Assembly: GCA_013314855.1 (NCBI GenBank)
Contig: JABUEW010000030.1
Location: forward strand, 1 to 40,677
Origin: Bacillota bacterium
GTDB lineage: Bacteria > Bacillota > Clostridia > Acetivibrionales > DUMC01
Direction: 5' to 3'
DNA: 40,677 nt
In this document: positions 17,187 to 38,348 of the stretch, piece by piece
Position numbering within the stretch: position 1 is the first letter of the stretch
Layout of the letters: every line of letters starts with the position of its first letter
Translations under genes and position numbers: made by a program
The notes under the pieces: generated by a model
Seen by the model: the letters and a program-made list of their open reading frames with translations, nothing else
Told to the model about the DNA's origin: nothing
The model's database searches: none

Positions 17187-17272
17187 GGTGCGAGAGACAG
17201 GACTTGAACCTGCACAGGATTGCTCCCACCAGAACCTGAATCTGGCGCGTCTGCCAATTCCACCACTCTCGC
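17186..17272 (-). tRNA. tRNA-Leu (CAG anticodon)
   Basis: The minus strand folds as a class II tRNA. Acceptor arms GCGAGAG and CTCTCGC pair fully. The anticodon stem CCAGA/TCTGG carries the loop TTCAGGT, giving anticodon CAG. The variable arm is long (GGGA, GCAA, TCCT-type stem), as in tRNA-Leu, and the T loop is TTCAAGT. The discriminator is A and the CCA tail is encoded (17188-17186). A TATAAT -10 box lies on the minus strand at 17288-17283, 11 bases upstream, without a good -35. Confidence 0.96.
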
Positions 17273-36396: not shown

Positions 36397-37014
36397 ATGC
36401 GGATAACTTCAACCGTAAAAGATGAAAGAGAAGAGAGAGTATACAAAATCTATATAGATAATGTATATTCCTTTTCTGTTTCTGAAGAGGATTATTTTAG
36501 GTTCAACCTTTATGAAAAATACGAAATATCCGAAGAAGAGATTAATAATATAAAGGAAGCTGCCAACTTTACAGCCGCCAAGTCAAAAGCTTTAATTTAC
36601 CTTTCTTTTAAATTCCGGACTGAAAAAGAAGTAAGGTTAAAACTTGAAGGTGAAGGATTTAGTTCCGGTATAACTGAAAAAGTAATAAATGACCTTAAGG
36701 CGGAAGGTTATATTAATGACAGGCTTTATGTCATGAAATACCTCCATGAGAGAAGAAAACTAAACCCTAAATCAAAGCGGAGGTTAATCCAGGAGCTAAA
36801 AAATAAAGGGATAAAAAAGGAGTTAATATTAGAAGGCCTGGAAGAATTAAAAATTGATAATATTTTAGTTGCTGAAGAATTAGTAAGAAAAAAATTTAAT
36901 AATTTAAACCTGTCCCAAAAAAGAGTGGAAAAAAAAGTTTATCAATACCTGCAATATAGGGGTTTTAGTGCTGACGAAATTAAAACAGTTTTAAGTAAAC
37001 TGGCACATAATTAA
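36397..37014 (+). CDS. recX: Regulatory protein RecX
   Basis: 205-residue modulator that binds inside the RecA filament and limits its extension. It consists of three-helix repeats; family motifs are YLSFKFRTEKEVRLKLEGEG, INDRLYVMKYLHERRK and the late YQYLQYRGFSADEIKTVL. The first 60 residues are a beta-rich segment common in Firmicutes RecX. AGGTGGGAAG precedes ATG 36397, 26 bases after the recA stop, so it is likely on the same SOS-controlled transcript. The gene ends one base before an inverted-repeat element. Confidence 0.92.
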   Translation: MRITSTVKDEREERVYKIYIDNVYSFSVSEEDYFRFNLYEKYEISEEEINNIKEAANFTAAKSKALIYLSFKFRTEKEVRLKLEGEGFSSGITEKVINDLKAEGYINDRLYVMKYLHERRKLNPKSKRRLIQELKNKGIKKELILEGLEELKIDNILVAEELVRKKFNNLNLSQKRVEKKVYQYLQYRGFSADEIKTVLSKLAHN

Positions 37015-37095
37015 ATGTTAGAGGTTAGAAGAGGGAGGAAAAAGCTTGCCTTTCAATTCACCTCCGATATCTAATCTCTAACATCCAACTTCTAA
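37015..37095. repeat. Inverted heptad-repeat element between recX and etfA
   Basis: The left side is three heptads at 37018-37038 (TTAGAGG, TTAGAAG, AGGGAGG). The right side is five heptads at 37061-37095 in the opposite sense (CCTCCGA, TATCTAA, TCTCTAA, CATCCAA, CTTCTAA). Arms 37015-37029 and 37070-37084 pair over 15 bp with one G-U, and GGAGG/CCTCC pair inside. No strong T-run follows. It begins just after the recX stop and could act as a 3' stabiliser or be a dispersed intergenic repeat. Confidence 0.7.
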
Positions 37096-37118
37096 AAAGG
37101 ATATACCGGTTTACTTAT

Positions 37119-37156
37119 CTTAGTATTATTATAAGTATTATTACCTTAGTATTATT
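37119..37156. repeat. AGTATTATT direct repeats at the etfA 3' end
   Basis: AGTATTATT occurs at 37122-37130, 37134-37142 and 37148-37156; CTTAGTATTATT is exact at 37119 and 37145. The last copy includes the etfA stop codon. Confidence 0.7.
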
Positions 37157-38348
37157 GATTTAACCTTCTCTTAAACTCCTTTATTAGTTCAGGCAACACT
37201 TCAAGGACATCTCCTACAATGCCATAAGTTGCAACTTTAAATATCGGCGCTTCAGGGTTCTTATTTATTGCGACAATAACATCGGATGAAGACATTCCTG
37301 CAAGATGTTGTACAGCTCCTGAAATTCCACATGCAAAATAAACTTTTGGTCCAACGGTTTTGCCCGTCTGACCCACTTGATGGCTGTAATCAATCCAGCC
37401 TGCGTCAACAGTAGCGCGGGATGCTCCTACAGCGCCTCCCAGTACTCTTGCCAATTCTTCCACAAGAGCAAAATTTTTGGGGTCACCTAGACCTCGGCCC
37501 CCCGATACAACAATATCCGCTTCTGTAAGACTTACTGCTTCACTAAGAGTTGTTACAACATCTTTAACTTTAACCTTTATATTGCCCGGAATTTTTACTT
37601 CAGGTTCTATAATTTCTCCCTTCCTTGAAAGATCTCTTTCAAGCGGCTTCATTACTTTCGGACGTACTGTTGCCATTTGCGGTCTATGGTTGGGACAAAT
37701 GATTGTTGCCATTAAATTGCCGCCGAATGCCGGCCTGGTTTGCAATAAGTTCCGGCTTTCTTCATCTATTTCCAGCCCTGTGCAGTCTGCCGTCAAGCCG
37801 GTATTTAATCTTGAAGCAACTCTAGGAGCCAGTGAACGTCCATAAGTTGTTGCCCCCATGAGCACTATTTCGGGTTTATATCTGGCTATAAGCTGTACTA
37901 AAATATCGGCATATGACTCGTCATTATAGTGTTTCAGGGCAGGATTATCAATTAAATACACTGTATCGGCTCCGTGATGAATTAATAATTGTGCGGATTC
38001 TTTTACATTTTCTCCTAAAATAACGGCTGAAAGGGTTACTTTTAATTTATCAGCAAGTTTTCTGCCCTCTCCCAGAAGTTCCAGGACAACACCGGCAGGA
38101 ACTCCGTTTTTATGCTCGCCAAAAACCCATACTCCTTTATATTGGGATAAATTTATACCATTTTTTGTCTCATCTTTTTCAAAGAGTATGGCTTTAAACT
38201 TACAAGAAGCAACACATGCCCCGCAAAGTGTACAGTTTTCAAGAATTCTGGCTTTTCTGTCTTCAACTTCTATTGCGCCAAAAGGGCACGCCCGTATGCA
38301 AAGTTTACAACCGGTACAATTTTCCACCAATATATTTATACTTGCCAT
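37152..38348 (-). CDS. etfA: Ferredoxin-fused electron transfer flavoprotein alpha subunit
   Basis: 398-residue EtfA with an N-terminal two-cluster ferredoxin domain: Cys11, 14, 17, 21 and Cys39, 42, 45, 49. The rest is a normal EtfA, with the FAD-binding C-terminal part around GGRGLGDPKNFALVEELARV and VGQTGKTVGPKVYFACGISG. EtfAB carries electrons between flavin dehydrogenases; a ferredoxin domain on EtfA is known from CarE of the caffeyl-CoA reductase and related bifurcating complexes. CGGAGGTC precedes ATG 38348. It is the third gene after acyl-CoA dehydrogenase and etfB, with 71 bases to etfB. Confidence 0.94.
   Translation of the reverse strand: MASINILVENCTGCKLCIRACPFGAIEVEDRKARILENCTLCGACVASCKFKAILFEKDETKNGINLSQYKGVWVFGEHKNGVPAGVVLELLGEGRKLADKLKVTLSAVILGENVKESAQLLIHHGADTVYLIDNPALKHYNDESYADILVQLIARYKPEIVLMGATTYGRSLAPRVASRLNTGLTADCTGLEIDEESRNLLQTRPAFGGNLMATIICPNHRPQMATVRPKVMKPLERDLSRKGEIIEPEVKIPGNIKVKVKDVVTTLSEAVSLTEADIVVSGGRGLGDPKNFALVEELARVLGGAVGASRATVDAGWIDYSHQVGQTGKTVGPKVYFACGISGAVQHLAGMSSSDVIVAINKNPEAPIFKVATYGIVGDVLEVLPELIKEFKRRLNQ

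Follow-up and report, generated by a model that had tools for sequence, protein, structure and literature searches.

Facing arrays of degenerate heptads between recX and etfA are probably a gene-less relative of IVP-encoding intervening sequences

In the window (the whole stretch of 40,677 nucleotides, or 40.7 kb, that was analysed), the convergent genes recX and etfA are separated by a 137-bp gap, reaching from the recX stop codon (37012-37014) to that of etfA, and this gap contains two facing arrays of degenerate heptads. What kind of element is this, and how did it come to lie here? The initial annotation had counted three heptads opposed to five, which we can confirm, with the refinement that the left arm has four when its degenerate last heptad is included. 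Read in the sense given in Table 1, the left arm is TTAAAT GTTAGAG GTTAGAA GAGGGAG G, and the right arm is TTAGAA GTTGGAT GTTAGAG ATTAGAT ATCGGAG GTGA; the exact 14-mer TTAGANRTTAGANR occurs once on each strand. When both strands of the window were scanned with a heptad profile, every stretch other than the two arms scored 19.2 or less.

According to both the fold and the heptad scan, the arms are terminal inverted repeats able to pair. The predicted RNA fold of the hairpin reaches -40.4 kcal/mol, compared with a mean of -20.96 for shuffled sequences (z = -6.25), and none of 200 shuffles equals it. The fold also includes an outer stem around the heptad hairpin, and weakly suggests that this stem might be a host hairpin into which the element inserted. 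The outer-stem score of the window copy is reached by 2 of the 40 facing pairs described below and by 3% of swapped flanks, and outer stems around facing pairs in general gave no signal (medians of 5 and 5). A short tandem repeat of period 12 (CTTAGTATTATTA) is present at 37119-37156, between the hairpin and the etfA stop codon. The sole Rfam match in the window is a tRNA gene (17189-17272, reverse strand).

Table 1. Features of the recX-etfA region, in window positions
Feature	Position	Strand	Basis and remarks
recX, left neighbour	36397-37014	+	open reading frame; matches in 38 of 40 relatives
outer stem, left half	36992-37002	+	predicted fold; within the 3' end of recX; partner of 37107-37117, enclosing the heptad hairpin
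left arm, about four degenerate GTTAGAG-type heptads	37011-37038	+	heptad scan, 35.1; in predicted stem; overlaps the recX stop codon
inter-arm loop, 19 nt, without an open frame	37039-37057	.	position of the IVP gene in other family members
right arm, five degenerate heptads of opposite sense	37058-37095	-	heptad scan, 49.0; R1 model match
outer stem, right half	37107-37117	+	predicted fold
etfA, right neighbour, convergent with recX	37152-38348	-	open reading frame; adjoins recX in several relatives

We scanned the source genome (4.43 Mb in 252 contigs) for further arrays. The pattern GTTAGANGTTAGANGTTAGA, with up to three mismatches, has 62 matches at about 20 places, compared with 7 matches for a reversed-pattern control, and a search with an array model gave 33 matches at E-values up to 1. 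Copies thus exist beyond the window, and the earlier suggestion of a dispersed intergenic element is supported by these scattered arrays; by mechanical ORF calls, an array lies inside an ORF at 2 of 20 loci. The arrays do not form a set of near-identical copies, an idea that we rejected: the exact triple heptad TTAGANRTTAGANRTTAGA has no occurrence in the genome, and the whole 101-bp element matches only the window copy in a similarity search of the genome. The family is therefore degenerate. Over 168 units, its unit in the source genome is GT[TG][AG]GA[AGT], with positions 1, 2, 5 and 6 nearly constant and positions 3, 4 and 7 variable. Facing arms are found at five places, and the remaining arrays are single, with up to about 25 units.

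The same gap could be compared with that of one close relative, a metagenome-assembled genome of Clostridiaceae bacterium AS09scLD_118, which is the closest found (RecX 71% identical). Here recX and etfA abut with overlapping stop codons, and gap and element are both absent. Because the stops overlap in this relative, an insertion between recX and etfA in the lineage of the window is the most likely history, as judged from this one close comparison of sequences. At five other loci (L036, L038, L059, L046 and L042), etfA is found beside recX, and no array scores 22 or above.

Across the phylum, the distribution of arrays is patchy. In the order to which the source belongs, 17 of 58 genomes have matches, and in the phylum as a whole 48 of 398 do; neither the genus mate nor the family mate of the source has any. 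Among 45 pairs of arrays within 120 bp of each other, 40 are facing (+,-), four are (-,+) and one is (+,+). Most of the distinct arrays (110 of 172) are 28-41 nt long, the commonest lengths being 33 (21 arrays), 34 (19), 36 (18) and 37 (12); the lower end of this distribution is cut, because the search model requires about four heptads. By Rfam, 16 of the 40 facing pairs lie inside structured RNAs, namely RNase P RNA (7), 16S rRNA (4), 23S rRNA (4) and a c-di-AMP riboswitch (1). Another 12 adjoin tRNA or rRNA genes, and 12 are elsewhere, including all five of the source genome, in which no array locus is inside a structured RNA, unlike these 16. Some of the 40 pairs are likely to be inherited copies of one insertion. 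For two of the inserts in RNase P RNA and for that in the riboswitch (a heptad hairpin at L132, 1427-1641), alignments show a position in a hairpin loop, and we take the RNase P RNA loop to be the one named P12. By eye, short stems adjoining the arms were noticed in several RNA genes.

In one genome (G035), an ORF lying between the arrays inside a 23S gene was identified by its match to PF05635 (E-value 1.1e-33) as encoding the 23S rRNA intervening sequence protein (IVP). Four 23S copies of this genome carry the form with the gene (445 bp), and one carries a gene-less form (166 bp) with identical outer ends. Both gene-bearing and gene-less forms are also present in an rRNA operon of a second genome (G115). 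Leptospira and Salmonella also have 23S intervening sequences (IVSs) with an S23p/IVP gene, and known 23S IVSs, beyond that of Coxiella too, are cut by RNase III or tolerated. One 23S copy of the first genome (L288, 1383-1531) has an unrelated 147-bp insert where the other copies have heptad IVSs. Furthermore, an armed IVP gene is located inside an RNase P RNA gene, in sense, at three loci (L147, 884-1658; L264, 707-1481; L261, 787-1559), and the insert of L147 was aligned to a hairpin loop of RNase P RNA.

We therefore turn to IVP genes in general, in a test that is free of any assumed unit. From 123 HMM hits, we kept 83 loci that differ in their DNA and have an E-value no higher than 1e-12 with a match over 70 positions; the 82 with flanks of at least 60 bases on both sides were tested. 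In the PF05635 search of the phylum, flanks were taken from part of the places, stronger matches first, which supplied 29 new loci (L219-L247) along with 40 regions. The best period is 7 in 56 of 108 IVP flanks (54 loci), compared with 2 of 54 recX flanks (27 loci). Period-7 arms are found on both sides of the gene at 41 of the 82 loci, on one side at 8 and on neither at 33. The arm lengths again peak at 28-34 nt. The units at IVP loci are diverse (GTTAGAR, GGTAATA, GTTCGGG, GTCAGCA, GTGGAGA, GCCGCCA, GTTCCGC and others), and their period is constant at 7. The mean circular distance between units is 1.15 for the two arms of one element and 3.29 between elements, and the arm units disagree fully in one of 40 elements (of 41, with L257 left out for its runs of N). 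Distances between proteins and between units are weakly correlated (Spearman 0.155, permutation p = 0.009). Arrays and IVP genes co-occur in 26 of the 398 phylum genomes, where 8.8 are expected (Fisher 1.5e-9, uncorrected for kinship).

A plasmid sample, for which 12 of 19 records with IVP hits were examined, provided 12 further IVP loci (11 cyanobacterial and one from Azospirillum). Of their 24 flanks, 18 score at least 9 at period 7, and 7 is the best period in 18; for 98 other genes on three of the plasmids, 14 of 196 flanks score at least 9, and none of the 98 does so on both sides. Of three cyanobacterial plasmid records (L311, L317 and L314), two have an IVP gene flanked by cas6 and cas4, and in one the IVP gene has cas10 on one side and a Cmr3-family gene on the other. 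The period-7 rule thus appears to apply also among elements whose repeated letters are completely different, and the full form of the family is best read as a gene for IVP, a four-helix-bundle protein, between two inverted heptad arms.

A tree of the 82 IVPs includes a supported clade of 18 that is entirely arm-less, and the remaining 64 include all 49 armed IVPs. Both IVPs of the source genome that are above the cut-off fall in the arm-less clade, and a third lies below the cut-off. Since the arm-bearing clade has no member in the source genome, the elements there would be orphans, which is the weak point of the reading given below. Within the arm-bearing IVPs, there is a clade of 12 (support 100/99-100) whose members are all in RNA genes and all in the RNA sense, whereas none of the 47 scanned loci outside this clade is in an RNA gene. 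By eye, units of the GTTAGAR type mostly belong to this clade, and so the window hairpin most resembles the elements of the RNA-gene clade. Sense-only insertion into abundant RNAs would fit an RNA intermediate, and it would also fit selection for expression. Below the family cut-off, an IVP-like gene at L215 (G000:C24) has repeats on both sides that, by eye, resemble a diversity-generating retroelement (Avd-like).

In our reading, to which we assign a probability of about 0.65, the window hairpin is a gene-less IVS-like element, or 'mini-IVS', inserted between recX and etfA. The evidence that bears directly on the window copy consists of its unit, its facing geometry and its size, together with the lack of a gap in one relative. 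With facing period-7 arms, a common unit, and about four heptads on the left and five on the right, it falls within the heptad-armed family as defined here. As no IVP gene is present between its arms and the loop is only 19 nt, we file it as a gene-less relative and not as a full IVS. Several observations count against this reading: 33 of the 82 IVP loci are arm-less, the source genome has neither an arm-bearing-clade IVP nor an array locus inside a structured RNA, the insertion is judged from one close relative, and many source-genome arrays are single, unpaired and long. The period of the arms may come from the protein. The PDB relatives of IVP, 2gsc and 2rld, have five chains per entry, which agrees with IVP and Avd presumably being pentamers, and about five heptads per arm with a fixed step of 7 suggest the pentamer as a ruler. 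A pentameric IVP would bind one arm of about five heptads, one heptad per subunit, and such binding would fix the period and leave the letters free. IVP could help to move or maintain elements in trans, and the hairpin in transcripts might be cut by RNase III, or tolerated, like known 23S IVSs. The window element itself is probably either selfish or neutral, inserted at the 3' ends of recX and etfA.

The initial annotation had also raised the possibility of a slippage product kept for RNA structure. A short heptad run could have been duplicated locally, inverted by fold-back synthesis and selected as an RNA hairpin at the 3' ends of recX and etfA. The hairpin is indeed strong, and the slippage part of the proposal has a parallel in two 16S copies of one genome (G072), whose heptad copy numbers differ by whole heptads in both arms. 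However, arrays with the window-type unit are dispersed through the genome, and slippage alone is insufficient because the period stays at 7 while the unit differs from one IVP gene to another. The structural part fares worse: in ORF-oriented arms (L257 again left out), G-U mismatches are not in excess over A-C mismatches (74 and 69), so that selection on the RNA stem is unsupported. We regard local slippage as unlikely.

An origin in the two genes themselves seems to us more improbable still. The hairpin would then act in both directions on the 3' ends of recX and etfA, by terminating transcription, stabilising mRNA or offering a site to RNase III, and its heptad period would be incidental. 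Its site between convergent stop codons and its long stem with an outer stem favour such a role, but the close relative has no gap at all, and most other arrays of the genome are in other settings. Moreover, the gap has no terminator-like site call, and no GC-rich stem followed by a T-tract, as in a rho-independent terminator, was found there, in agreement with the earlier remark that this is not an ordinary terminator. Inverted termini, small size and dispersal would also be properties of a MITE or REP-type element that owes its movement to a DNA transposase or RAYT and is unrelated to IVP. However, the gene found between arms is that for IVP, and the termini have a constant period and no constant sequence, and we consider a MITE or REP origin to have a very small chance of being correct.

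Several known systems resemble parts of the heptad-armed family, here compared through the accessible portions of the cited papers. In Coxiella, tandem heptameric GACAGAT repeats are located upstream of the S23p gene, their number depending on the strain (Warrier 2016, PMC4990558). Such 23S IVSs with an S23p/IVP gene share with the family their inverted termini, IVP gene, gene-less forms and insertion into rRNA hairpins; the window copy differs in being gene-less and in lying between protein genes rather than within a gene for 23S or another rRNA. The accessible 23S IVS literature has no mention of heptad arms as a general rule or of IVP genes in RNase P RNA. Intergenic heptameric repeats described as quadruplex-forming are present in Xanthomonas (GGGAATC) and in Nostoc (GGGGA[CT]T), and those of Xanthomonas, like the window arrays, form convergent pairs, 70 and 75 in two genomes (Rehm 2015, PMC4692102); the text on heptameric repeats in that paper does not mention 'four helix' or '23S'. 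In the Nostoc tRNA-Leu intron, a degenerate heptanucleotide hairpin is found in the P6b stem, so degenerate heptads pair within a structured RNA as in our family, but no protein gene is mentioned in the accessible text (PMC3488679). The TAACTGA repeats of Beggiatoaceae are intergenic tandem 7-mers, also present in Cyanobacteria and Bacteroidetes, but they are almost all direct, with one inverted case, and are mostly upstream of start codons; the accessible part of that paper has no mention of 'four helix', 'S23' or '23S' (PMC4679880). Heptameric repeats (Coxiella IVS, Xanthomonas, Nostoc) are thus already known; for their general tie to IVP genes, we found no precedent in the accessible open-access literature, subscription papers being outside its scope.

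A broader view, which we put forward tentatively and hold with less than even confidence, is that a single widespread class of selfish elements accounts for 23S IVSs as well as for many of the scattered heptad repeats and for the heptad hairpins in the loops of RNase P RNA, 16S rRNA and riboswitches. In these elements, a pentameric IVP would read each arm in about five steps of 7 nt; the protein would thus set the spacing, and the letters would be free to drift. A specialised clade would insert into stable RNA genes alone, in the sense orientation and perhaps via an RNA intermediate. Heptameric repeats are over-represented in bacteria, and their cause has been little treated in the literature (Rehm 2015, PMC4692102, in its accessible part); the role of IVS elements and of the S23/IVP protein has been called unclear (Warrier 2016, PMC4990558, likewise). 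If IVP genes and heptad arms are one element, both puzzles would merge into one testable system, which would also account for the unusual hairpins seen in rRNA, in RNase P RNA and in riboswitches.
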